The position numbers were made by a program, and so were the translations under genes. This document shows positions 1-12,608 of a stretch of DNA of 64,000 nucleotides, piece after piece (within the stretch, counting starts at the first letter, position 1; the number at the start of each line of letters is the position of its first letter). The stretch is from Cystobacter fuscus (GTDB lineage: Bacteria > Myxococcota > Myxococcia > Myxococcales > Myxococcaceae). The notes beneath the pieces are model-generated. The model was not told the origin of the DNA and did no database searches. It saw only the letters and a program-made list of their open reading frames with translations. The stretch is from the NCBI RefSeq assembly GCF_002305875.1, contig NZ_CP022098.1, positions 3,410,001 through 3,474,000 on the forward strand, given 5' to 3'.

Positions 1-664
1 GGAGTTCCGTGTTGAGCATCACACGGGTCTGGGTGGAGTAGCGGACTTCCTTGCCGTTCTCGTCGAGCGCCACCAGGGTGATGCGCACGCGCGTGGGGAG
101 GATGGACTTCTTCTCCGTGCGCCGGGTGTCCCACTCGTCCTCCCACTCCTTGCGCTCCGAGTCCCAATATTCGAACTCCACCTTCTTGGCTCCCTCGAAG
201 AGCACGTCCGTGGTGCCGCCGCGATCCATCCGGTCCCCGATGTTCGGGTTCTCCCGCCGCATCAGATCCATGCGGCCGTTGGCCCCGCGCTCCGTGGACG
301 TCTGCAGCGAGTACTCCACCACGGCCTGGTCCGACTCCTTGGCGTCCGTGTACAGCCGCTGGTGCGCGAAGGTGGTGAAGGTCAGCGAGTCCGACTCGCC
401 GATGAAGTTGGTGGGCCGGTCGTTCTGGTCCCGGAAGCGCGAGCCGTCGTAGCGGTCGCTCACGTACGCCGAGCCGATCTCCCGCGCCATGCGGTTCATC
501 GCCGCGCGCAGCATGCGGTAGTGGTCCGCTTCCGTCTCCACCACTTCCTTGGCGTGGAAGCCCGTCTGGAAGGCCATGCTCACCATCGCGCCCATCAGCG
601 CGGTGATGGCCACGGCGATCATGATCTCCAGCAGCGTGAAGCCCCGTCGGGAAGCCCTTCTCAT
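1..664 (-). CDS. gspJ: Type II secretion minor pseudopilin GspJ (partial, runs off the left edge)
   Basis: This is a minor pseudopilin of the type II secretion system, expected at the tip of the periplasmic pseudopilus with GspH, GspI and GspK. The frame is open from the ATG at 664 to the window edge (about 221 codons visible). It begins with a short basic leader and a prepilin peptidase site: Gly8, then FTLLE with the conserved Glu at +5, then a hydrophobic helix. Further in, the helix-plus-pilin pattern of GspJ is visible (MNRMAREIGSAY near residue 60 and ESDSLTFTTF near residue 90). The start overlaps the gspI stop by 4 bases (ATGA), so the two are probably translationally coupled. The C-terminus is missing only because the window ends. 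GspK and later genes are expected beyond the edge; that is inference. Confidence 0.9.
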   Translation of the reverse strand, partial: MRRASRRGFTLLEIMIAVAITALMGAMVSMAFQTGFHAKEVVETEADHYRMLRAAMNRMAREIGSAYVSDRYDGSRFRDQNDRPTNFIGESDSLTFTTFAHQRLYTDAKESDQAVVEYSLQTSTERGANGRMDLMRRENPNIGDRMDRGGTTDVLFEGAKKVEFEYWDSERKEWEDEWDTRRTEKKSILPTRVRITLVALDENGKEVRYSTQTRVMLNTEL

Positions 665-1518
665 CGCGTCCTCCCTTGCAACTGGCCGCCGCCCGGCACG
701 ATTCCTCCCGCGCCTGGCTGACCCCCGCCCCGGCCACCCGAGCGCGACAGGAAGTCGGTGCGCCGCATGAGCGGCTGGCCGTTGGCCGGGTTGATCATCT
801 GCCCGTTGGGGCCGGGAGCCGCGTTCTGCACGATGAAGCCCGTGGCCGGGTCCACCCACTGCTCGGACATCCCGGGAGGCTGCGTGCCGTTGTTGGGCTG
901 GAAGCCGCCATTGCGGTCCGAGCCCGGCCCCAGCGACACCATGTGCGTGACGAGATCCAGGCTCTCCACCTGCGTGCCCTCGCGCCAGTACACCGTGAGG
1001 TGCAGCTCGCGCACCGTCTGGGTGATCTGCTGCACCATCTGCGTGAACATGGGCTGGGCCATGCCCATCGCCGCGCCCGCCATCGGGTTGGCCGTCGTCT
1101 GGGAGCTGCTCGAGCCGTCCTTGCCCGTGCCCCCGCCGCCGAACATGGAGGCCAGGCCGCTCAGGTCCCCGCCCTCGCCGATGGGCAGGTTGAAGATGGC
1201 GCCGATGAGCTGCTCGGGCGACACCCCCTCCGTCTGCGGGGCGATGATCTTCGCCCGCCACTTGAAGCCCTCCCACCCCTCCGCGGAGAAGTCGCCCGAC
1301 TCCTCCTGATCGTCGTTGGAGAAGCCCTCGTCGTAGAGCTTCTGCTCCAGGTCCGTCATCTTCGAGCGGGCCAGGAGCGTGGCCACGGTGAGCTTCTTGG
1401 CGTAGGCGTGGTTGGCCACCGCGCCGGAGTTGATGTCGAAGATGGCCATGAGCGCGAGCGCCAGGATGGCGAGCGCCACCACCGTCTCCAACAGGGTGAA
1501 GCCACGTGTGCGTCTCAT
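661..1518 (-). CDS. gspI: Type II secretion minor pseudopilin GspI, with a long extension
   Basis: Minor pseudopilin GspI, 285 residues from the ATG at 1518. The leader is very short (MRRTRG), followed by FTLLE (Glu11 at +5) and a hydrophobic helix, the standard class III signal. The residues after the helix (AYAKKLTVATLLARSKMTDLEQ) look like the usual GspI alpha helix. The protein is more than twice the usual GspI length of about 120-130 residues. There is a glycine/serine-rich insert around residues 140-165, and beyond about residue 210 a Pro/Gly/Asn-rich tail that ends in repeated Gly-Gly-Arg stretches. It overlaps gspH at its 5' end (4 bases) and gspJ at its 3' end (4 bases). The family assignment is firm; the function of the extension is unknown. 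Confidence 0.9.
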   Translation of the reverse strand: MRRTRGFTLLETVVALAILALALMAIFDINSGAVANHAYAKKLTVATLLARSKMTDLEQKLYDEGFSNDDQEESGDFSAEGWEGFKWRAKIIAPQTEGVSPEQLIGAIFNLPIGEGGDLSGLASMFGGGGTGKDGSSSSQTTANPMAGAAMGMAQPMFTQMVQQITQTVRELHLTVYWREGTQVESLDLVTHMVSLGPGSDRNGGFQPNNGTQPPGMSEQWVDPATGFIVQNAAPGPNGQMINPANGQPLMRRTDFLSRSGGRGGGQPGAGGIVPGGGQLQGRTR

Positions 1519-2237
1519 GACCGGGGAACCTCCAGCGCCTCGCCCACGATGTTGACCTTGCCCGTCAGCGGAGAGATGGCGAGCGTCCACACGTTCTCTC
1601 CCTGGCGCACGTACACCTGGGCCTTCTCCGTGAAGCCCTGGGGAAAGAAGTAGAGGTAGGCCAGGCCCTTGTCCGCGGGCTCGCGCTGGTGGCGCGTCCA
1701 CACGGACACGTTCACCCCCGCGGGCAACTGCCGGGGAGAAATCTCCTCGCCGGTGAACTCGGAGAAGCGCGCGGCGTTCTCCACCCGGTCCTGCTCCTGG
1801 GCCATCAGCTCGTCCAGGCCGGGCTCGTCGTCGTCGCCCCGGGTGAAGTTGCGGCGCGGATCGTTCCGGGGCCGGCCCTTCTTCGCGTCCTCGCGGGCGG
1901 TGTCGTCCTCGCGCAGCTGCGTGTCGCGGTCGCGCGCGGTGGTCACGTTGCCCGCGGCGCACTCGGCGCGGTAGCGCGACACGCCTTCCTCGGTCTTCGG
2001 ATCCGCCAGCTCGAAGACGAGCCGGCACGTCTTGCCGGTGAGCGCGGCGGTGTCGTACAGCGAGCGGATGACACCGGCCAGCTCGCTCGCGGACGCCTTG
2101 GCCTTGGCGCCGGTGATGGCGCCCACGGACACGGTGACGGCGGCGAAGAGCACCGCGGCGATCCCCAGCGCGATGGACATCTCGATGAGCGTCAGCCCGC
2201 GCTCGCGGGTCCGGCGCACGGCCCGCGCGCTGTTCAT
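1515..2237 (-). CDS. gspH: Type II secretion minor pseudopilin GspH
   Basis: Minor pseudopilin GspH/FimT type, 240 residues. The leader ends at Gly14 and is followed by LTLIE (Glu19 at +5) and a hydrophobic helix of about 20 residues, so prepilin peptidase should cleave after Gly14. The globular part is longer than the usual 150-190 residues because of a charged stretch at about residues 95-150 that is rich in Asp, Arg and Glu. It lies between the GspG-like gene (4-base overlap) and gspI (4-base overlap), the usual place for gspH. It should act in the minor-pseudopilin tip complex in the inner membrane and periplasm. I call it GspH rather than GspJ or GspK from gene order and the LTLIE start. 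Confidence 0.88.
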   Translation of the reverse strand: MNSARAVRRTRERGLTLIEMSIALGIAAVLFAAVTVSVGAITGAKAKASASELAGVIRSLYDTAALTGKTCRLVFELADPKTEEGVSRYRAECAAGNVTTARDRDTQLREDDTAREDAKKGRPRNDPRRNFTRGDDDEPGLDELMAQEQDRVENAARFSEFTGEEISPRQLPAGVNVSVWTRHQREPADKGLAYLYFFPQGFTEKAQVYVRQGENVWTLAISPLTGKVNIVGEALEVPRS

Positions 2238-2725
2238 CGCGCTTCCTCCTGGGCGGCCTGCCGTTGCTGCTCCTCGGTGCCCACCATGGCGTTGTCGAGC
2301 ACCCCGCCACTGATGAGGTCCGCCGCGTCTCCGCTCCCGCCCGCCACCCCGTCCGAGCCGTAGGACATGATGTAGCCGTTGCCCTTCTCGCTCATCCGGT
2401 ACTGGTACGCATTGCCCCAGGGATCCTGGGGAATCTCCTTGATGAGCCCCACCTGCAGGAGCGGATAGAAGTTCTCCGCCTGCGAGGGGAAGCGCCCGGT
2501 GATGCGGTGGAAGGACTTGAAGTAGCCCTCCAGCCCGCGGATCTCCGCGCGCGCCTGACGCTGCAGGGGGGTGAGCGTCTTGTCGAAGGTGAGGCTGGCG
2601 ATGGCGAAGGCCCCCGCCGAGCCCGCGACGATGACGCCCGCGACGATGAGCCGCCCCGTGCGCGTCGGGCGTGCGGCGGTCGGCTCGGCGAGGCGCGGGG
2701 TAGTGGTGGCGTGCTCGGTGGTCAT
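2234..2725 (-). CDS. GspG-like pseudopilin domain protein without a prepilin signal
   Basis: 163 residues. The second half carries the hallmarks of the major pseudopilin GspG: PQDPWGNAYQY near residue 105 and SYGSDGVAGGSGDAADLI near residue 125, the region that binds calcium in GspG. The N-terminus is not a pseudopilin, however. About 25 polar residues rich in Thr, Ala and Arg precede a single membrane helix (about 27-47), with no Gly-Phe/Met-Thr-Leu-x-Glu motif. It should therefore be an uncleaved membrane-anchored GspG homologue and not a polymerising subunit. It follows gspG by 16 bases and overlaps gspH by 4, so it is part of the operon. A good ribosome site (AAGGA) precedes the ATG at 2725. 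Its role is unknown; regulating or capping the pseudopilus is a guess. Confidence 0.75.
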   Translation of the reverse strand: MTTEHATTTPRLAEPTAARPTRTGRLIVAGVIVAGSAGAFAIASLTFDKTLTPLQRQARAEIRGLEGYFKSFHRITGRFPSQAENFYPLLQVGLIKEIPQDPWGNAYQYRMSEKGNGYIMSYGSDGVAGGSGDAADLISGGVLDNAMVGTEEQQRQAAQEEAR

Positions 2726-2741
2726 GGGCGTCTTGTCCTTG

Positions 2742-3161
2742 CTACTTCTGGGCCGTGGCGTCGCGCGAGGAGATGTCCGCGTCGGGACCCTCTCCCCCCT
2801 GCGTGCCGTCGGCGCCGTAGGAGATGAGGACGGGCTTGCCGCCCTCGTTCATGTACACGTACTCGTGGCCCCACGGGTCCAGGGGGATCTTGTCCAGGTT
2901 CTGCGTCTCCACCAGGGCGCGCAGGCCGGTGCCCGTGTCGGGGTACTTGCCCTTCTTCGTGTAGTAGAGCTTGAGCGCGCTCTGGATGTTCTTGATGTCC
3001 AGCCGGGCCGTGTCCTGCTTGGCCTCCTCGAGCTTGGGAATCACGGACACACCCACCGCGGCCATGATGAGCCCGAGGATGGTGATCACCACCATGATCT
3101 CGATGAGGGTCATGCCGCGGCGGCGGCGCTGCTGCTGTCGCTTCGTCTTCGTGTCGCTCAT
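2742..3161 (-). CDS. gspG: Type II secretion major pseudopilin GspG
   Basis: Major pseudopilin, 139 residues, the typical size. The leader is strongly basic (KTKRQQQRRRRG) and ends at Gly16, followed by MTLIE with Glu at +5 and a hydrophobic helix. The C-terminal half has the GspG signature LDPWGHEYVY and SYGADGTQGGEGPDADI, including the acidic residues that bind calcium. The frame could start earlier, but the ribosome site AGAGG lies six bases before the ATG at 3161. The ATG two codons upstream would leave no spacing, so 3161 is preferred. Subunits of GspG polymerise into the pseudopilus that pushes substrates through the GspD channel. It sits between the 56-residue membrane protein gene and its non-cleavable paralogue. 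Confidence 0.95.
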   Translation of the reverse strand: MSDTKTKRQQQRRRRGMTLIEIMVVITILGLIMAAVGVSVIPKLEEAKQDTARLDIKNIQSALKLYYTKKGKYPDTGTGLRALVETQNLDKIPLDPWGHEYVYMNEGGKPVLISYGADGTQGGEGPDADISSRDATAQK

Positions 3162-3202
3162 GTCCATCCTCTCGTGACTTTTCGGCAATTGCCCCGGGGG
3201 GT

Positions 3203-3373
3203 TCAACGCCGTGTTCCTGTCAAAATGTCCTGGGTCCGGCTGCCGGCGTCCGGCGGGCCGGCCTTGGAGGGAGCGGCATACAACAAGGCCCCCACCGTGA
3301 GCAGCGCCGCCGTGAGGGCGAGCAGCGCCGCGAGCGTGACGCGCTGGATCCACCGGTCGAGCGTGTCGTTCAT
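3203..3373 (-). CDS. Small single-pass membrane protein inside the gsp operon
   Basis: A 56-residue protein I do not recognise. It has a short polar N-terminus (MNDTLDRWIQ), one hydrophobic segment of about 23 residues (about 12-34, rich in Leu, Ala and Val) and a polar tail (residues 37-56) with Pro, Gly, Asp and Arg. The ATG at 3373 is preceded by GGAGG at a spacing of about eight bases. It lies 14 bases after the gspF stop and 41 bases before gspG, where the classical gsp order has no gene. It is probably an inner-membrane accessory protein of the secretion machine. The topology is unassigned; a GspC- or GspL-like helper or a GspF partner are possible roles, and all are inference. Confidence 0.6.
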   Translation of the reverse strand: MNDTLDRWIQRVTLAALLALTAALLTVGALLYAAPSKAGPPDAGSRTQDILTGTRR

Positions 3374-3387
3374 CGCGAGAACCTCCG

Positions 3388-4644
3388 TCACCGGATGGCC
3401 GAGTTCACCTGGAGAATCGGCATCAGGACCGAGAAGGCCACGAATGCAATCATCACGCCCATGAACACCGTGAGCAGGGGCTCGAGCATGGAGGTGAGGG
3501 CGCCGATGCGCACGTTGACCTGGTTCTCGTAGTTGTCCGCGACGGACAGGAGCATGTCCTCGAGCTGGCCGGATTTCTCGCCAATCGACACCATGTGGTA
3601 GACGAGCGGCGGGAACTCGCCCGAGCGCTTGAGGGGCGTGGCGATGCTCTCGCCCTCGCGGATGGCATCGCGCGCCTTCTCCACCACGTCGGCCAGCACC
3701 GAGTTGGTGATGACCGCCTTGGTGATGTCCATGGCGGTGAGCAGGGGCACGCCGCTCTTGAGCAGGGTGGCGAGCGTGCGCGCGAAGCGGGAGATGGCCA
3801 GCAGCCGCAGCAGCCCCCCGAAGATGGGGGCCTTGAGCGCGTAGCGGTCCCACACCGGCTTGCCCTTGGGGCTGCGGAAGTAGGACGTCAGGCCGAAGAT
3901 GATGGCGAAGAGCGTGGGGAAGATGATGAACCACCAGTCCTGCAGCATGGTGCTCGTCCAGATGAGCAGGCGCGTGGTCCAGGGCAGGGTGGCCTTCATG
4001 GTGGTGAAGATCTTCGTCACCTTGGGGATGACCACCACCATGAGCAGGGTGAGGATGCCCACGCCCACCAGCACCATGATGGCCGGGTAGGTCATGGTGC
4101 CGACGATCTTCTGCTGCAGCTTGGACTGGCTCTCGGTGAAGTCGGCCAGGCGCATGAGCACCTTGTCGAGCGCGCCCGAGTGCTCGCCGGCGCGGATCAT
4201 GTTCACGTAGAGCGAGCCGAACACCTTCTGGTGCGTGGCGAGCGCGTCGGCGAGCGAGGAGCCCTCGTTCACCCGGCTCTTCACCTCGGAGAGGATGAGC
4301 TTGAGCCGCTCCTTCTCCACCTGATCCACCAGCGCGGTGAGCGCCTCCACCAGGGTGACGCCCGCGCCCAGCAGGGTCGCGAGCTGGCGCGTGGTGATGG
4401 CGATGTCATCGGTGCTGATGCGGCCGCGCGCCAGCTTGCCGAAGTTCACCTCGCGGTCGGCCTGGGCCGCGTTGGCGCCCTTGCGCACCGCGGCCCGGTT
4501 GCCGTCGGCCTGGCCGATGACCTCGGTGAGGAACTTGTTGTCCTTGCGCAGCTGCGAGCGCAGGGTCTTGGCAGAGTCCGCTTCCAACATCCCGCGGATG
4601 GATTTTCCGGCCGAATCGAGGGCCTTGTACTCGAACACTGGCAT
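3388..4644 (-). CDS. gspF: Type II secretion inner-membrane platform protein GspF
   Basis: GspF, 418 residues, the normal family length. It starts with the typical MPVFEYKALDSAGK and has two T2SSF domains (about 75-195 and 280-400). Each is followed by hydrophobic membrane segments: VGVGILTLLMVVVI near residue 200, a second near 250, and the C-terminal MGVMIAFVAFSVLMPIL. In the cell it is the polytopic inner-membrane platform that couples the GspE ATPase to pseudopilus assembly. The gene follows gspE after 52 bases, and the 56-residue membrane protein gene follows it. Nothing is missing or interrupted. Confidence 0.95.
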   Translation of the reverse strand: MPVFEYKALDSAGKSIRGMLEADSAKTLRSQLRKDNKFLTEVIGQADGNRAAVRKGANAAQADREVNFGKLARGRISTDDIAITTRQLATLLGAGVTLVEALTALVDQVEKERLKLILSEVKSRVNEGSSLADALATHQKVFGSLYVNMIRAGEHSGALDKVLMRLADFTESQSKLQQKIVGTMTYPAIMVLVGVGILTLLMVVVIPKVTKIFTTMKATLPWTTRLLIWTSTMLQDWWFIIFPTLFAIIFGLTSYFRSPKGKPVWDRYALKAPIFGGLLRLLAISRFARTLATLLKSGVPLLTAMDITKAVITNSVLADVVEKARDAIREGESIATPLKRSGEFPPLVYHMVSIGEKSGQLEDMLLSVADNYENQVNVRIGALTSMLEPLLTVFMGVMIAFVAFSVLMPILQVNSAIR

Positions 4645-4696
4645 GGTGGCTCACTCGGTGGGGCCGCGCGCCCCACCGGGGGCCGCGGCGTGTCCC

Positions 4697-6490
4697 TTAG
4701 AGATCCTCTTGGGTGATGCTCAGCACCTCGGCGATGGTCGTCTCGCCCAGGGCGATCTTGCGCGCGCCGTCGTCCAGCAGCGTGTGCATGCCATTGCTCA
4801 TGGCGGCCTTCTTGATGGTGGAGGAGTCCACGTTCTTCAGGGCGAGCTGGCGCACGGTGTCGTCCACGAAGAGCAGCTCGTAGATGCCCGTACGGCCGCG
4901 GTAGCCGTTCTGGCTGCAGGACGTGCACCCGGCGGCCTTGTAGATCTTCTCCACCCCGTGGCGCTCCTTGAGCGTCGCGCGGTTGAGGCTGATCTCGCGC
5001 AGCTCCTCGTCGGTGGGCGTGTACTGCACGCGGCAGTCCGGGCACACGCGGCGCACCAGACGCTGGGCGAGCACGCCGGTGAGCGAGGAGGCCACGAGGA
5101 AGGGTTCCACGCCCATGTCCACCAGACGGGTGATGGCGCTCGCCGCGTCGTTGGTGTGCACCGTGGAGAACACCAGGTGGCCCGTGAGCGACGCCTGGAT
5201 GGCGATTTCCGCCGTCTCCTTGTCGCGGATCTCGCCCACCATGATGACGTCCGGGTCCTGACGCAGGAAGGAGCGCAGCCCCTGGGCGAACGTCAGGCCG
5301 ATCTTCGGGCTGATGGCCATCTGGCCGATGCCCTTGAGCTGGTACTCGACCGGGTCCTCGACGGTGAGGATGTTCAGGTCCGGGGTGTTGATGCGCGAGA
5401 GCGCGCCATAGAGCGTGGTCGTCTTGCCGCTACCGGTGGGGCCCGTCACCAGGACGATGCCGTGCGGGCGCCGGATGAGGTGCTCCATCTGATCGAGCAT
5501 GCTCTTGGCCATGCCCAGCTCGGTCAGATCCAGGAGCGTGGTGTTCTTGTCGAGCAGTCGCATGACGATGCGCTCGCCATACGTGGTGGGGATGGTGGAC
5601 AGACGGATGTCGATGTCGCGGCCGGCCATCTTGATGCGGATGCGGCCGTCCTGCGGCAGGCGCTTCTCCGCGATGTTCAGCTGCCCCATGACCTTCACGC
5701 GGCTGACGATGGCGCTCTGGTAGCGCTTGGGCGGCTTGATGATCTCCTGCAGCACGCCGTCCACGCGGAAGCGCACCATGAGCTCGCGCTCCATGGGCTC
5801 GATGTGGATGTCGCTCGCGCGCTCCTTGGCGGCGCGGAAGAGCACCGAGTTGACGAGCCGGATGACCGGGGCCTCGTCTCCCTCCACGTCGATGAGATCC
5901 TTGACCTCGTCGATCTCCTGGGCGATCGAGTCCAGGTCCTGCGCCTCCAACTCGCCCACGAGCTGCTCGGCCTCGTTGGTGGCGCGGTCATAGACGCTGT
6001 TGATGGCGTCCACGATGGTGGAGGCGAGCGCGATGCGCGGCAGCACGTCCTGGCCGAGCAGCATGCGCGCGTGATCCAACACCGTGGTGTCCAGGGGATC
6101 CGCCACCGCGAGCGCCACGGCCCCCTCCTCCACGGACAGCGGCAGGATGCGCGCCTGCTTGGCGAAGTTGATGGGCACGCGCTTGATGAGCTCCGGATCG
6201 ATCTCCTCGATGAAGATGCGCGCCAGGTAGGGCAGGTCCAGCTGGAGCCCGAGCGCCTTGGCCACCTCCTCCTCGCTCAGGGCCTTGAGGCCCACGAGGA
6301 CCTCCCCCAGCCGGCCACCCTTGTCGGCCTGGAGCTGCAGCGCCTCCTGGAGCTTGTCCTCGGTGAGGCCGCTGGTGCGGCGGAGGATCTCCCCGAGGGG
6401 CCGGCCGCACAGGGTGGTGGGGCCCTGGGCGATGACCTGGGTGGCGGCGTCCGGGGGGACGGCGGGAGGGGCGTCAGCGAGCAGGCTCAT
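4697..6490 (-). CDS. gspE: Type II secretion ATPase GspE
   Basis: GspE, 597 residues, the cytoplasmic hexameric ATPase that drives pseudopilus assembly. The N-terminus (about 30-170) holds a GspE/MshE N-domain with RLGEVLV at residue 60 and LSEEEVAKAL at 71, the type that binds c-di-GMP in some relatives; binding here is untested. The motor core has Walker A GPTGSGKT at 350-357, a Walker B-like DVIMVGE near 414-420 and the His box GHLVFSTVHTND near 438. The zinc-binding tetracysteine motif is complete (Cys483, Cys486, Cys522, Cys525), which favours GspE over a twitching ATPase. The gene begins four bases after gspD ends, consistent with coupled translation. Confidence 0.96.
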   Translation of the reverse strand: MSLLADAPPAVPPDAATQVIAQGPTTLCGRPLGEILRRTSGLTEDKLQEALQLQADKGGRLGEVLVGLKALSEEEVAKALGLQLDLPYLARIFIEEIDPELIKRVPINFAKQARILPLSVEEGAVALAVADPLDTTVLDHARMLLGQDVLPRIALASTIVDAINSVYDRATNEAEQLVGELEAQDLDSIAQEIDEVKDLIDVEGDEAPVIRLVNSVLFRAAKERASDIHIEPMERELMVRFRVDGVLQEIIKPPKRYQSAIVSRVKVMGQLNIAEKRLPQDGRIRIKMAGRDIDIRLSTIPTTYGERIVMRLLDKNTTLLDLTELGMAKSMLDQMEHLIRRPHGIVLVTGPTGSGKTTTLYGALSRINTPDLNILTVEDPVEYQLKGIGQMAISPKIGLTFAQGLRSFLRQDPDVIMVGEIRDKETAEIAIQASLTGHLVFSTVHTNDAASAITRLVDMGVEPFLVASSLTGVLAQRLVRRVCPDCRVQYTPTDEELREISLNRATLKERHGVEKIYKAAGCTSCSQNGYRGRTGIYELLFVDDTVRQLALKNVDSSTIKKAAMSNGMHTLLDDGARKIALGETTIAEVLSITQEDL

Positions 6491-6493
6491 GGG

Positions 6494-9040
6494 TTACTCC
6501 TGGTTTCCGGTGTCCGGCTGGATGCGCAGCCGCTCCGGATCCTCCGGAGGGGGGGCGGACGGAGGCCGGACCTCGGGGGTCTCCGTTGTCGCCGGAGTTT
6601 GCAAACCCCTGGCGCCCGGCGAGACTTCCCCCGGGGCCACCGCGGACCCCGCCGGGGCGGGAGTGGACGAGGGGGCGGGCGTGCTGTTGGCGGGCCGCAG
6701 GACGCGCTCGCCGGGCATGCCGGGACCGCCATTCTCCGCCTTCTGCTCCTCGGTGAGCACCGTGCGGCGCATGCGGCCCAGGGGTCCGCTCTTGCGCTCG
6801 AAGTCCACGGGCACGTCGTAGCCGGCCACCTGGCCGTAGAACTGCTCCACGAACTGCTGCCGCTCCTGCATCTTGCGCTCGAAGATGCGCCGGAAGTCCG
6901 ACTGCTCGCGGATGATGTAGGGCGTGAGGAAGAGCAGCAGGTTCGTCTTGGTCTTGCTCTTGTTGGTGGAGCGGAACAGGTGGCCCAGCAGGGGCACGTC
7001 TCCGAGGATGGGCACCTTGGCGACGGTCTCGATGGTGCGCTCCTGCATGATGCCGCCGATGACCACCGTCTCCTGATCCTTGGCCACCACCGTCGTCTTC
7101 GCGCTGCGCTTGGACGTCGTGGGGCCGAGCACCGCGTCCGTCGAGGCGATCTCCTCCGTCTGCTCGGTGATGGCCATGCGGATGAAGTCGCTCTCGTTGA
7201 TCTGCGGCTTGATGGTGAGCTTGAGCTCCACGTTCTGGCGGGTGATGGGGGCGTAGAGGCTGCTCAAGCCGCCGAGCGAGCCGAGCAGGGAGTTGACGGG
7301 GTTGCCGGTGCCGGTGGTGGTGCCGGTGGTACCCAGCGACGAGGGCGAGAAGCCGGACTGGAAGGGCACGTTCTGGCCCACGGTGATCTCCGCCTCCTCG
7401 TTGTCGCTGGTGAGCAGGTGGGGGGTGGAGAGCACGTTGACGTCCGAGCTCTGCTGGAACGCGTGCAGCACGATGCCGAAGGCGGGGATGTCGATGCCCA
7501 GCGCCTTGAGCTCGGGGATGACGGGGCCCTGGAGGCCCGCGAGGAAGCCGCCGAAGCTGGCCAGGTTGGCGAGCGAGAAGGAGGGAGGCAGGCCGCTGGT
7601 GCTGTACTTGGTGCCCACCAGGCCCGAGCCCGTGCCCAGCGGCGTGCCCACCTGGTAGCCGCTGTGCACGTTCAACCCGAAGTCCTGCTTGCGGTCCAGG
7701 TTGACCTCCATGATGACCGCCTCGACGAACACCTGGCGCCGGGGCTTGTCCAGCTCGCGGATGACGCGCACGAGGCTGCGGTAGTCGCTCTGGCTGGCGA
7801 TGATGACGAGCGAGTTGGTGCCCTTGTCCGCGGAGATCTTCACCTCGCCGGAGAAGAGCTCGGCGGCGCCGCCCGAGCCCGGCTGACGGGGCGCGCCCGG
7901 CACTCCCGGCACGGGAACGGGCGAGCGCGGCCGGTTGCCGGTGCCCTGGGAGAGCGTCTGCAGGGTGCTGGCGATCTCCTCCGAGTTGGCGTTCTCCAGC
8001 GGGTAGACGTTGATGCGCTCGGTGCCGGCGGTGGGGATGTCCAGCTCGCGCACCAGGCTCTGGATGCGCTCGAAGGCCGCGGGGCTGGCCACGACGATGA
8101 GCTTGTTGGTGCGCTCATCCGGAATCATCTGCGAGAACGTCACCGGGCCGCTGGTCGAGTCGCCGCCCGGGCCGCTCGCGGGCATCGTCTCGCCCATCGA
8201 GCCTCCCGGCGGGGTCATCACCGCGGGGGCGCCGCGCGGGGTGCGGCCTTGCGGCATGCCCGGGTTGGGGTTGCCGCCCTTCTGCTCGAAGAGCTTCTGC
8301 ACCGTGGCGGCCACGTCCTGGGCGGTGGCGTACTGCACCTGGATGATGCGCACCTCGTCGCTGGCCGAGCGCGTGTCGAGCTGCTCGATGATGCGCTCGA
8401 GGCGGCGCACGTTGGAGCCCACGTCGTTGATGATGACGATGTCCGGCGGGTACGGGATGGTGTCGCCGTCCTTGGACACGAGCTGCTGGAGCACGCCGCG
8501 CAGGGGCTCCACTTCCACGTTCTTGATGCGGAACAGCTTGGTGATCATCTGCTCGTTGGTCGTGTACGCGCCCTCATCGTCCATGAGCGTGGGGATGGGG
8601 TTCTGCTTGGCGGCGCGCTTGTCCACGATCTTCAGGAAGCGCCCGTGCTGGTAGACGGCCAGGCCGTTGGCGTCGAGCGCCGCGAGGAACGCCGCGTAGA
8701 ACTGGTCCGCGTCCACCTCCACGCGCCCGTTCTCCGGGCCGAGGATGGAGATCTTCCCGCGCACGTTCTCCGGGAGGATGAACGTGCGGCACGTCGCGTC
8801 CGACACCGTCTGCACCAGCTTCTCGATGTCCACCTTGTCGAAGTAGATGTTGTAGCGGGCGCGGCGGCGCACCTCCTCGCACGTGGGCGTGGGCCTCACG
8901 GTCGTGCCATTCCCCTCGGGGTTGGTGCCCTGCGGGGTGATCTGCCGATCGGCGGAGCCGGGAGTGGTGGGGCGCTGGGCCAGGGCGGGCGAGGCCATCG
9001 CCAGGGACAGCAGGAGCAACCAGGACGGAAGCGTCTTCAT
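6494..9040 (-). CDS. gspD: Type II secretion outer-membrane secretin GspD
   Basis: GspD, 848 residues, forms the multimeric outer-membrane channel. It starts with a signal peptide (MKTLPSWLLLLSLAMASPALA). The N0 domain follows at about 65-140, then N1-N3 domains, with the N3 repeat type visible at VRIIQVQYATAQDVAATVQKL (about 260) and a variable linker rich in Gly, Pro and Met. The secretin domain begins at about 440 (RRQVFVEAVIMEVN) and includes VPILGDVPLLGHLF near 685. The tail (about 765-848) is Pro/Ala-rich and low in complexity. No separate GspS pilotin gene is visible in the window. It lies between gspC (27-base gap) and gspE (3-base gap). Confidence 0.96.
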   Translation of the reverse strand: MKTLPSWLLLLSLAMASPALAQRPTTPGSADRQITPQGTNPEGNGTTVRPTPTCEEVRRRARYNIYFDKVDIEKLVQTVSDATCRTFILPENVRGKISILGPENGRVEVDADQFYAAFLAALDANGLAVYQHGRFLKIVDKRAAKQNPIPTLMDDEGAYTTNEQMITKLFRIKNVEVEPLRGVLQQLVSKDGDTIPYPPDIVIINDVGSNVRRLERIIEQLDTRSASDEVRIIQVQYATAQDVAATVQKLFEQKGGNPNPGMPQGRTPRGAPAVMTPPGGSMGETMPASGPGGDSTSGPVTFSQMIPDERTNKLIVVASPAAFERIQSLVRELDIPTAGTERINVYPLENANSEEIASTLQTLSQGTGNRPRSPVPVPGVPGAPRQPGSGGAAELFSGEVKISADKGTNSLVIIASQSDYRSLVRVIRELDKPRRQVFVEAVIMEVNLDRKQDFGLNVHSGYQVGTPLGTGSGLVGTKYSTSGLPPSFSLANLASFGGFLAGLQGPVIPELKALGIDIPAFGIVLHAFQQSSDVNVLSTPHLLTSDNEEAEITVGQNVPFQSGFSPSSLGTTGTTTGTGNPVNSLLGSLGGLSSLYAPITRQNVELKLTIKPQINESDFIRMAITEQTEEIASTDAVLGPTTSKRSAKTTVVAKDQETVVIGGIMQERTIETVAKVPILGDVPLLGHLFRSTNKSKTKTNLLLFLTPYIIREQSDFRRIFERKMQERQQFVEQFYGQVAGYDVPVDFERKSGPLGRMRRTVLTEEQKAENGGPGMPGERVLRPANSTPAPSSTPAPAGSAVAPGEVSPGARGLQTPATTETPEVRPPSAPPPEDPERLRIQPDTGNQE

Positions 9041-9067
9041 GGAAGGGCGGGGTACGGCACGGCGGGG

Positions 9068-9985
9068 TTAGCGAATGGTGTAGTTCTTGCGGATGCTCGA
9101 GCCGTTGCGCTCCAGCTCGATTTCGATCCGCGAGGCTTCCTTCAGCTTGGTGTAGACCTCGAGGGCCTTCTCCGGGCTGTTGAGTTCGAAGCCGTTGATG
9201 CGCTTGATGACGTCGCCGTTCTGGACGCCAATCTTCGAGTAGATGGAGTCGGGGCGGATGGAGAAGAGCTTGAAGCCCTGCGCCTGACCGTCCTTGAAGG
9301 CCGGCACGATGCGCGCCTGCATGGCCACGTCGTTGAGGTTGGCCAGCGTGCGATCGATCTCCGTGCGGGGAATCTCGTAGTCGTTCTCGCCGGTGGCGCG
9401 GATGCCGTTGCCGAGGCCGGCGTTGGGCGTCTGCACGGGCGTGTTGGTGGGCAGCGGCGGCGGCGTGTACGTGGCCACGGCGCCATCGCCCGGCTGGCCG
9501 TCGATGTACTCCTTGCGCCCGTTGTTGAGGACGATGACGCGCAGCCGCTCGATGTCGATGACCTGGGCGCTGCTGCTCTCGATGGTGTCACCCACCATAT
9601 AGGTGTAGGAGCGCTGGTTGTTCATGTCCTGGATGGACGCCACGCTCCACAGCTTGTCGCTGGCCACCAGCGTGCCCAGCAGCTTCACCCGCAGGTTGCT
9701 CTTGACGGGCGCGGCGTTGGGATCCGCCACGGGCTGGGTGGGCTCGGCCACCACGGGGTCGGGCTCGGGAATCTTCACGCCCGTCAGCTCCGACATGCGC
9801 CGGATGTCCAACGAGGCCAGCATCTCGGTGGGCCGGGCCTTCTGCCGTGCCGCCACCTCACCCGAGGGCAGGGGCGTCAGGGCCGACTCGACGAACAGGT
9901 TCACCGTCTTCGCCGCCAGCAGCGCGACGAGCAGGATGAACACCAGGTTCACCGTCCAGAAGTACTTGCGGAAGAGGAGTTCCAT
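9068..9985 (-). CDS. gspC: Type II secretion inner-membrane connector GspC
   Basis: GspC, 305 residues, links the inner-membrane platform to the GspD secretin. It has a short cytoplasmic tail, one membrane helix (about 11-29), a Pro-rich linker and the homology-region domain (about 85-160, with VKLLGTLVAS and YMVGDTI). A PDZ domain follows at about 210-300, with NGDVIKRINGFEL. The frame stays open upstream to a possible start at 10039. I prefer the ATG at 9985 because a near-perfect sigma-54 promoter at 10017-10032 lies inside that upstream stretch and would start the transcript near 10007. The ribosome site before 9985 is weak. It is the first gene of the gsp operon. Confidence 0.88.
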   Translation of the reverse strand: MELLFRKYFWTVNLVFILLVALLAAKTVNLFVESALTPLPSGEVAARQKARPTEMLASLDIRRMSELTGVKIPEPDPVVAEPTQPVADPNAAPVKSNLRVKLLGTLVASDKLWSVASIQDMNNQRSYTYMVGDTIESSSAQVIDIERLRVIVLNNGRKEYIDGQPGDGAVATYTPPPLPTNTPVQTPNAGLGNGIRATGENDYEIPRTEIDRTLANLNDVAMQARIVPAFKDGQAQGFKLFSIRPDSIYSKIGVQNGDVIKRINGFELNSPEKALEVYTKLKEASRIEIELERNGSSIRKNYTIR

Positions 9986-10016
9986 CACACGTCCAGAGAA
10001 GGCCTGCCCGGGATTG

Positions 10017-10032
10017 AGCAAGTGGGGTGCCA
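10017..10032 (-). promoter_or_regulatory. Sigma-54 (-24/-12) promoter for the gsp operon
   Basis: Read on the minus strand the bases are TGGCAC-CCCAC-TTGCT, an exact match to the sigma-54 consensus TGGCAC-N5-TTGCW. The -24 GG is at 10031-10030 and the -12 GC at 10019-10018. The predicted start of transcription is near 10007, about 22 bases before the gspC ATG at 9985. The neighbouring gene upstream encodes a sigma-54 activator, which supports the call. Confidence 0.75.
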
Positions 10033-10177
10033 TCCACATCGGGGAGCGGGCAACCCGAGCCTTACAGCCAAGGTCTTGAAATCATTCCGGAATAACTCGT
10101 CCGGCTGACACGGGCGGTCCGGGCTTCCGGGGCGCGAGACAAAATGTCAACGCGGCGGGAGGCGGCTTGACGCCCTG

Positions 10178-11590
<1,413 letters not shown>

Positions 11591-11612
11591 GGTGGGCGCG
11601 GTCTTGCAATCC

Positions 11613-12608
11613 CTATTCCGCTTCCTCGCTCCCCAACAGGGGTCCGCTCATGCGGCCGAGGTCCTCGCGGTTGACCTTGTCCAGGTTGAACTTGCGGGCG
11701 CTGGAGATCATCCGGGTGAGGGTGGGCTCGAACTCGACGGGGCCGTCCTTCTTGAAGCGCAGGAAGTTGATGCGCGCCACGACGAAGTTCTTGAGGTAGG
11801 GGCTCTGCAGGCCGCGCGCCTTGAGGGCGTCCACCACGCCGGCCACGGTGTCGTCCAGCTCGAGCAGCCGGTCCGCGCGCGCCTCGCGCACCGCGAGCGC
11901 CTCGGCCAGGGGCAGGGGGAGGAAGGCCTCGGCGCGCTTGATGAAGGGGTGGTAGGCGCCGCCGGAGAAGCGCGGCCGTTTCTCGTACGCGGCCCCGAGC
12001 GTGAGGAAGGCGGGCTCCTCGAAGAGGTGGGCGAAGTCCGCCTCGCGCCCGGCGCGCGCGCCGGTGAGGCCCCGGTGCATGCGGATGACCTCCAGGGAGC
12101 GCTCCTTGAGGTTGTGCGCCTTCTCGGTGTTGAGGGCGAGGATCTGATAGGCCACGTCCTCCTCGGGCAGCACCAGGGCCATGATGGCCTTGCCTCCCAG
12201 CAGCTTGGAGGCCTGGAGCCGGTGGTTGCCGTTGGGCGTCCAGTACCGGCCCTCCTTGCGGATGGCGATGATGGGATCCAGGAACCGGTCCAACCGCTCC
12301 ATCGCCGAGGCGAGCCGCTTGACGTGGGGCTCGGACACGTCGCGCTGGTAGGGGGTGGGCTCCACCTTGTCGATCGGCAGGGCGGCGAACACCACGGTGT
12401 GCGCCCCGAGCGGATCCCGATAGAGGCCGACCACCTGGCCGCCGTCGGCGAGGATGCCCTGCACCAGCTCCGTCTCGGGGGCGTGCGCCTCGCTCACCAC
12501 CTCGGCGGGCGAGAGGCCCTTGGAGGCGGGCTCGGCCTTCTTGCGGCGGGGCCGGCGGGTCGTGGTGGACGCACTGGCGGTCTTCTTGCGCGGCGACTTC
12601 GCGGCCAT
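11613..12608 (-). CDS. ParB/sulfiredoxin-fold N-terminal domain protein
   Basis: 331 residues. A basic, Ala/Lys/Thr-rich tail (1-30) precedes a ParB-type domain (about 75-180) with LPIDKVEPTPYQRDVSEPHVKRL and a catalytic-type segment PNGNHRLQASKLLGG near residue 125. In true chromosome-partition ParB this segment is GERRxxA and binds CTP; here it is GNHRLQA, so this is a divergent member and probably not the chromosomal ParB. No parA gene is adjacent. The C-terminal part (about 190-331) is mostly helical and unrecognised; I see no clear helix-turn-helix. The gene is 22 bases upstream of the response regulator on the same strand and may be co-transcribed with it. The target or substrate is unknown. 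Confidence 0.7.
   Translation of the reverse strand: MAAKSPRKKTASASTTTRRPRRKKAEPASKGLSPAEVVSEAHAPETELVQGILADGGQVVGLYRDPLGAHTVVFAALPIDKVEPTPYQRDVSEPHVKRLASAMERLDRFLDPIIAIRKEGRYWTPNGNHRLQASKLLGGKAIMALVLPEEDVAYQILALNTEKAHNLKERSLEVIRMHRGLTGARAGREADFAHLFEEPAFLTLGAAYEKRPRFSGGAYHPFIKRAEAFLPLPLAEALAVREARADRLLELDDTVAGVVDALKARGLQSPYLKNFVVARINFLRFKKDGPVEFEPTLTRMISSARKFNLDKVNREDLGRMSGPLLGSEEAE

Follow-up and report, generated by a model that had tools for sequence, protein, structure and literature searches.

A predicted one-helix membrane protein encoded between gspF and gspG in the type II secretion operon of Cystobacter fuscus and related families

In the type II secretion system (T2SS) operon of Cystobacter fuscus, does the gspF–gspG junction hold a gene and, if so, what might its product do? 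Descriptions of the T2SS usually list a fixed set of Gsp proteins, and genes as small as the candidate at this junction may escape annotation. An earlier note on the 64,000-nt stretch of C. fuscus DNA analyzed here (the window) had pointed to a 56-residue frame between the two genes and suggested that it may encode an undescribed small T2SS component. Based on the analyses described below, our best explanation is that this small ORF is a real gene, the predicted product of which is a single-pass inner-membrane protein, and we lean toward the view that this protein is a lineage-specific, one-helix accessory protein of the T2SS inner membrane.

The small ORF occupies positions 3203..3373 on the minus strand and comprises 56 codons and a stop codon. 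Its translation, MNDTLDRWIQRVTLAALLALTAALLTVGALLYAAPSKAGPPDAGSRTQDILTGTRR, followed by the stop, has the sequence DRWIQR near the N-terminus, a membrane helix at approximately residues 10–32, and a short, variable C-terminal tail. A GGAGG sequence (3382..3386, minus strand; read directly) lies 8 nt before the ATG and is likely the ribosome-binding site. The frame starts 14 nt past the gspF stop codon and ends 41 nt ahead of gspG. Thus, the position and translation given in the earlier note, its strong ribosome site at 3386–3382, and the tight fit within the operon all hold. An in-frame GTG, which overlaps the gspF stop by 4 nt, is an alternative start that would give a 62-aa protein in the C. 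fuscus genome; several relatives likewise have a 4-nt overlap between the gspF stop and the earliest possible start. We prefer the ATG because MND-x-x-DRW opens the frame at the first start in relatives such as L004, L006, and L007. The first 12 kb of the window contain 65 ORFs of at least 40 aa, as this DNA is GC-rich; because such frames are common here, the case for a gene rests on conservation and not on ORF length.

The genes around the small ORF are encoded on the same strand. gspF (3388..4644), which encodes the inner-membrane platform protein, scores 505.6 bits with TIGR02120 (cut-off 424), and gspG (2742..3161), which encodes the major pseudopilin, scores 99.4 bits with TIGR01710 (cut-off 88.85). 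These are accompanied by genes for a gspH-like pseudopilin (1515..2237; N_methyl PF07963; TIGR01708 with E 8.5e-6, below its cut-off) and a gspI-like pseudopilin (661..1518), which starts at an internal ATG of a longer frame that matches N_methyl PF07963 and has the same operon place in relatives. On the other side, gspE for the ATPase (4697..6490) and gspD for the secretin (6494..9040) were assigned by eye based on sequence and place in the operon, while gspC (9068..10039) matches PF11356 (E 4.5e-11), has a PDZ match below cut-off, and may have first codons that do not belong to the gene. gspJ, gspK, gspL, and gspM, together with a weak gspN below its cut-off, lie at or beyond the low edge of the window. 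Because gspC to gspN are all present, the gsp set is complete without the small ORF; the earlier note had stated that no standard gsp gene occurs at this position. Of 40 operon loci, 29 have all twelve genes gspC–N by tblastn (E <= 1e-3), and several of the others end at a contig edge. The 29 include 18 of the 19 loci with the small ORF, the remaining one being cut by a contig end, and 9 of the 12 loci that lack the small ORF but belong to the same taxonomic order. In all 59 genomes in which the small ORF was read, it lies between gspF and gspG.

Directly after gspG, a frame at 2234..2725 (minus strand) encodes a GspG-like protein (PF08334, E 5.1e-13), which keeps the membrane helix and the T2SSG domain and lacks the prepilin cleavage signal GFxxxE (no N_methyl match). 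This protein was matched in six of 10 operon loci of the window's family, here called f1 (L139, L140, L141, L144, L145, and L150), and in none of 30 loci of other families.

We found no known family to which the predicted product of the small ORF belongs. The window protein matched no Pfam family, and in NCBIfam it gave two 13-bit matches with cut-offs of 100 and 127, neither of which is a Gsp family; PHROG gave no meaningful match, and the best match among solved structures (PDB) had E 0.085, which is not meaningful. An f1 profile compared with alignments of GspC, F, G, the second GspG, H, I, J, K, L, M, and N (D and E were not among these) gave hhalign probabilities of at most 5.7%. These comparisons lend no support to the idea that the small ORF is a homologue of the membrane helices of GspC, GspL, GspM, or GspN. 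A prepilin remnant was rejected, given that the product has no GFxxxE and no N_methyl or IV_pilin_GFxxxE match, both of which gspG gives, that its usual start is DRW[IVL]QR, and that it has no profile relation to pilins.

By contrast with these Gsp comparisons, the f1 profile and a profile of the other five families with the small ORF (f2, f3, f6, f9, and f10, of which f10 belongs to another order of the same class) match each other in register through the helix, with hhalign probabilities of 96.4–96.7% (E 1.1e-9 and 4.3e-10). When the f1 profile was run against six-frame translations of 80 junction loci (2145 frames), all 32 loci with the small ORF ranked on top. Of these, 24 are from f1 and match by construction, so that the informative rows are the eight from f2–f10, which scored 9.2–21.2 bits (E 0.11 to 1.9e-5) compared with 5.2 bits for the best unrelated frame. 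Against 40 operon loci (11945 frames), the 19 loci with the small ORF again ranked first; the lowest of them scored 9.1 bits (E 0.63), compared with 6.3 bits for the frame that followed. In the reverse direction, the f2–f10 profile placed 19 of 24 f1 loci above the best unrelated frame (9.0 bits) in the junction set and seven of 10 (14.2 bits) in the operon set. Several of these cross-family E-values are individually weak. In a genome-wide search of 193 genomes, a match at E <= 1e-4 was present in 92 of 95 listed f1 genomes; the other three (G005, G012, and G194) are assemblies in >700 pieces. Fifty-nine of the 193 genomes had no match and were taken as outside f1 from the kinship order of the listing. 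Among the best 33 first-look candidates scored per genome, a depth at which weak copies could be missed, we observed no convincing paralogues elsewhere, and matches outside the gsp copies were no better than E 1.4e-4, a level to be expected for a membrane helix.

The earlier note had suggested looking for a conserved small ORF at the same place in other myxobacterial gsp operons. A pairwise search with the small ORF gave E-values of 4.9e-31 to 4.0e-6 in 20 of 59 genomes, the C. fuscus genome included. Among the weaker rows with a locus (E 0.0012 to 0.057), eight of 10 lie between gspF and gspG and two (L025 and L027) do not. Altogether, 28 of the 30 loci returned by this search hold gspF, the exceptions being the same two, and all 28 show a small hydrophobic frame before gspG. 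A sequence scan of named genomes gave at least five loci (one Myxococcaceae MAG, three Corallococcus, and one Archangium MAG). For a sample independent of the small ORF, we used gspF matches from two overlapping samples, one of 117 genomes from the order and one of 146 from the phylum, and read 80 chosen junctions. A homologous frame is present at the junction in 49 of 49 f1 genomes (26 found via the small ORF and 23 via gspF) and in all 10 genomes of the other families (f2, 1/1; f3, 4/4, two of them via the small ORF; f6, 2/2; f9, 2/2; f10, 1/1), eight of which were picked by gspF. The small ORF thus passed the refutation test set in the earlier note, in which a lack of a conserved frame at this position in relatives would have counted against it. 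No homologous frame was found in the 15 genomes read from four further families of the window's order (f4, 0/1; f5, 0/8; f7, 0/5; f8, 0/1), and gspF and gspG are <30 nt apart in all 14 of those from f4, f5, and f7. Likewise, none of 33 loci from other classes has a homologous frame; in 26 of these, gspF and gspG are <100 nt apart, six have another gene in between, and in one (L090) the gspG query gave no match, although a pseudopilin frame follows gspF. Among the genomes read, the small ORF is confined to part of one class. Since f4, f5, f7, f8, and other classes have T2SS operons that lack it, the T2SS in general does not depend on it. The earlier suggestion of a small T2SS component stands as far as a conserved one-helix frame under protein-level constraint in an otherwise complete gsp operon is concerned; a general T2SS component is not supported by the genomes read, since related families have T2SS operons without it.

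In a tree of GspE and GspF from 41 sequences, the families with the small ORF group together with f5, while f4, f7, and f8 lie outside. f5 joins f1 and f10 with a support of only 0.49. From these sequences, the simplest reading would be a single gain of the small ORF and a single loss in f5.

Which part of the product is conserved? Among 58 distinct homologues, residues 12–32 are free of gaps in all 58, Leu24 is present in all 58, and Gly28 is present in 55; in most f1 members, D-[RK]-W-[IVL]-Q-R precedes the helix. The stretch after position 32 varies from 1 to 40 residues and comprises three or fewer residues in 14 of the 58. In 36 f1 sequences, the core has pN 0.217 and pS 0.418 (median pairwise dN/dS 0.36), while the tail has pN 0.566 and pS 0.555. 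In 29 sequences, differences in the core are distributed over the codon positions as 33/15/52%, with second positions changing least, and this pattern flattens to 34/25/41% with 58 more divergent sequences and L044. We conclude that constraint on the core is moderate and that the tail drifts freely. In the window's genus, a QDILTG motif is kept in the tail (window 3203–3240, minus strand; L002, L003, and L008) despite a shorter preceding linker in L008, which hints at a genus-specific tail function.

These data bear directly on the possibility that the frame is a chance open frame or a remnant in a long gspF–gspG gap. Open frames are abundant in GC-rich DNA, and the tail indeed drifts freely; however, the profile matches across six families, the fixed place, and the constraint on the core contradict this reading, and we regard it as very improbable.

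The single membrane helix proposed in the earlier note is backed by hydropathy and by an AlphaFold2 model (mean pLDDT 81.0), in which residues 3–33 are helical (block pLDDT 96–97 for residues 11–30). Past residue 30, block pLDDT falls to 63–71, and the model has one four-residue helix (residues 47–50) and no folded periplasmic domain, such that the predicted protein consists of one membrane helix without another folded domain. Lys and Arg average 2.5 on the N-terminal side of the helix and 1.2 on the C-terminal side, with an excess on the N-terminal side in 38 of 58 homologues, on the C-terminal side in five, and a tie in 15, which favors an N-inside orientation. The N-terminus would thus probably be cytoplasmic and the short variable tail periplasmic. 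Within the helix, conservation is periodic, with a maximum at 105 degrees per residue (permutation p ~0.02). Leu17, Ala/Thr21, Leu24, Gly28, and Leu31 have a 4-3-4-3 spacing, a face that was named after the profile had been seen; Leu18 and Val27 lie elsewhere on the helix and yet match Leu17 in conservation.

Could the frame matter for translation rather than for its product? The ORF might act as a translational spacer that lets ribosomes pass on from gspF to gspG, thereby setting the level of the major pseudopilin, with the peptide doing little. Its closeness to gspF fits this idea, as do the 4-nt overlap of the earliest start with the gspF stop in several relatives and the distance of <30 nt in the 14 f4, f5, and f7 genomes; in addition, RNA covering the end of the ORF and the gspG leader has a somewhat better fold than most shuffled versions (z −1.84; matched by 10 of 200). 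However, the amino-acid sequence itself is conserved and not merely an open frame, as indicated by the gap-free helix, the invariant Leu24, and the second codon positions, which change least. Moreover, shuffled versions of the first 130 nt fold just as well (z 0.05), window positions 1–12000 gave no Rfam match, and neither a sigma-70-like promoter nor a minus-strand terminator-like site was found within positions 2700–3700. Altogether, we find a spacer quite improbable. An RNA element or internal promoter was rejected based on the same Rfam and promoter results, with one of the two stretches folding slightly better than shuffles (10/200).

Thus, a one-helix membrane protein remains the preferred reading, and the question becomes which protein it might contact. 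Genetic linkage by itself is no proof of a physical part of the T2SS. A conserved helix, a free tail, a fixed place, and one conserved face point to a helix that packs against another membrane protein of the T2SS. We suggest that the peptide would be made together with GspF and GspG, that its helix may pack on a neighbor's membrane helix via Leu17, Ala/Thr21, Leu24, Gly28, and Leu31, and that it may stabilize or modulate the platform while the pseudopilus is assembled. Our first guess for the partner is GspF because it is encoded by the adjacent upstream gene, with the 4-nt overlap in several relatives, and because PulF is reported to form a trimer with a central channel; GspC, GspL, GspM, and GspG are other candidates. 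GspF/PulF is an inner-membrane protein for which this trimer and channel were reported (PMC10790770, accessible part); the small ORF is its neighbor gene, has no profile relation to it, and no such small partner is mentioned in the passages of that report that were examined.

If the partner had adapted to loss of the small protein, compensating changes might be visible in it. We counted columns that are conserved to at least 90% in the families with the small ORF and changed throughout f5 or f7, using f3, f9, and f6, which have the ORF, as controls; the group sizes are unequal (5 versus 2–3). In GspF, 3/164 columns are changed in f5 and 5/164 in f7, compared with 4/146, 7/143, and 8/149 in f3, f9, and f6, respectively, and thus this test does not favor GspF as the partner. 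By raw counts, GspC (f5, 7/70; f7, 7/70; controls, 0/67, 4/60, and 2/60), GspH (5/40 and 6/40; controls, 2/34, 2/32, and 2/33), and GspM (2/16 and 3/12; controls, 2/20, 1/17, and 2/21) are somewhat above the controls; the counts for GspG are 2/36 in f5 and 4/33 in f7. In every f5 and f7 sequence examined (operon loci L124–L161), GspC has another residue in place of Phe8, which directly precedes the membrane helix. We rejected this as a change linked to the small ORF, as f13, f19, and f8, which lack the ORF, keep Phe8, while f10, which has it, does not. We speculate that the helix may sit in or beside the GspF trimer, or a GspC/L/M bundle, and gate the channel or couple it to the entry of GspG, as an unrecognized subunit of a platform of the type IV filament class that was gained within the class and lost in f5; in this full form, the proposal has a low likelihood.

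Alternatively, the protein could serve GspG or a substrate, and not the platform, as a one-helix membrane partner that keeps the major pseudopilin or lipid-anchored MYXO-CTERM cargo in the membrane prior to assembly or export. The small ORF lies immediately ahead of gspG, and MYXO-CTERM proteins use the T2SS to reach the surface of Myxococcus xanthus, as described in the accessible part of PMC11980579. The same part of that work reports MYXO-CTERM in all examined genera of the phylum, while the small ORF is present in only part of one class; moreover, the small ORF has no profile relation to pilin helices. We therefore consider a role as GspG or cargo partner unlikely.

Returning to the accessory protein that we favor, its size and single helix are like those of CydX, KdpF, AcrZ, and CcoQ, one-helix accessory subunits of bacterial membrane complexes with ~30–60 residues; this likeness is by description, and membership in a complex would be a prediction for the small protein. 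With GspC, GspL, GspM, GspN, and the pseudopilins, it shares one membrane helix near the N-terminus and the same operon; it differs from them in profile (hhalign <=5.7%), in having no prepilin signal, and in the lack of a folded periplasmic domain in the model. In the literature searched, no description of the small ORF was found in titles and abstract starts among the matches listed; this search covered few subscription papers and is, therefore, weak evidence of absence. If the proposal is correct, an extra conserved helix in one lineage would imply that small subunits can be added to the inner-membrane platform, and the small ORF would offer a short, easily mutated handle on how the platform works in bacteria that place surface proteins by the T2SS. 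T2SS genes of M. xanthus have been reported to be upregulated with prey (PMC10196010, accessible part).

A second gspG above the TIGR01710 cut-off was observed at G000:C1:2196496-2196849 (L118); by eye, it is seemingly solitary, with no gsp gene within 1.5 kb on either side. Other frames also occur at the gspF–gspG junction. In f8 (L044), the gap is filled by an unrelated 92-aa hydrophobic frame (hhalign 2.6%; no Pfam match). In f13, all six loci read (L063, L071, L076, L082, L085, and L087) carry an LspA-like frame of 175–191 aa between gspF and gspG; two of these were scanned and belong to Peptidase_A8, signal peptidase II (E 1.1e-29 and 1.2e-27), and the other four were judged by eye, placing a lipoprotein peptidase inside the T2SS operon.
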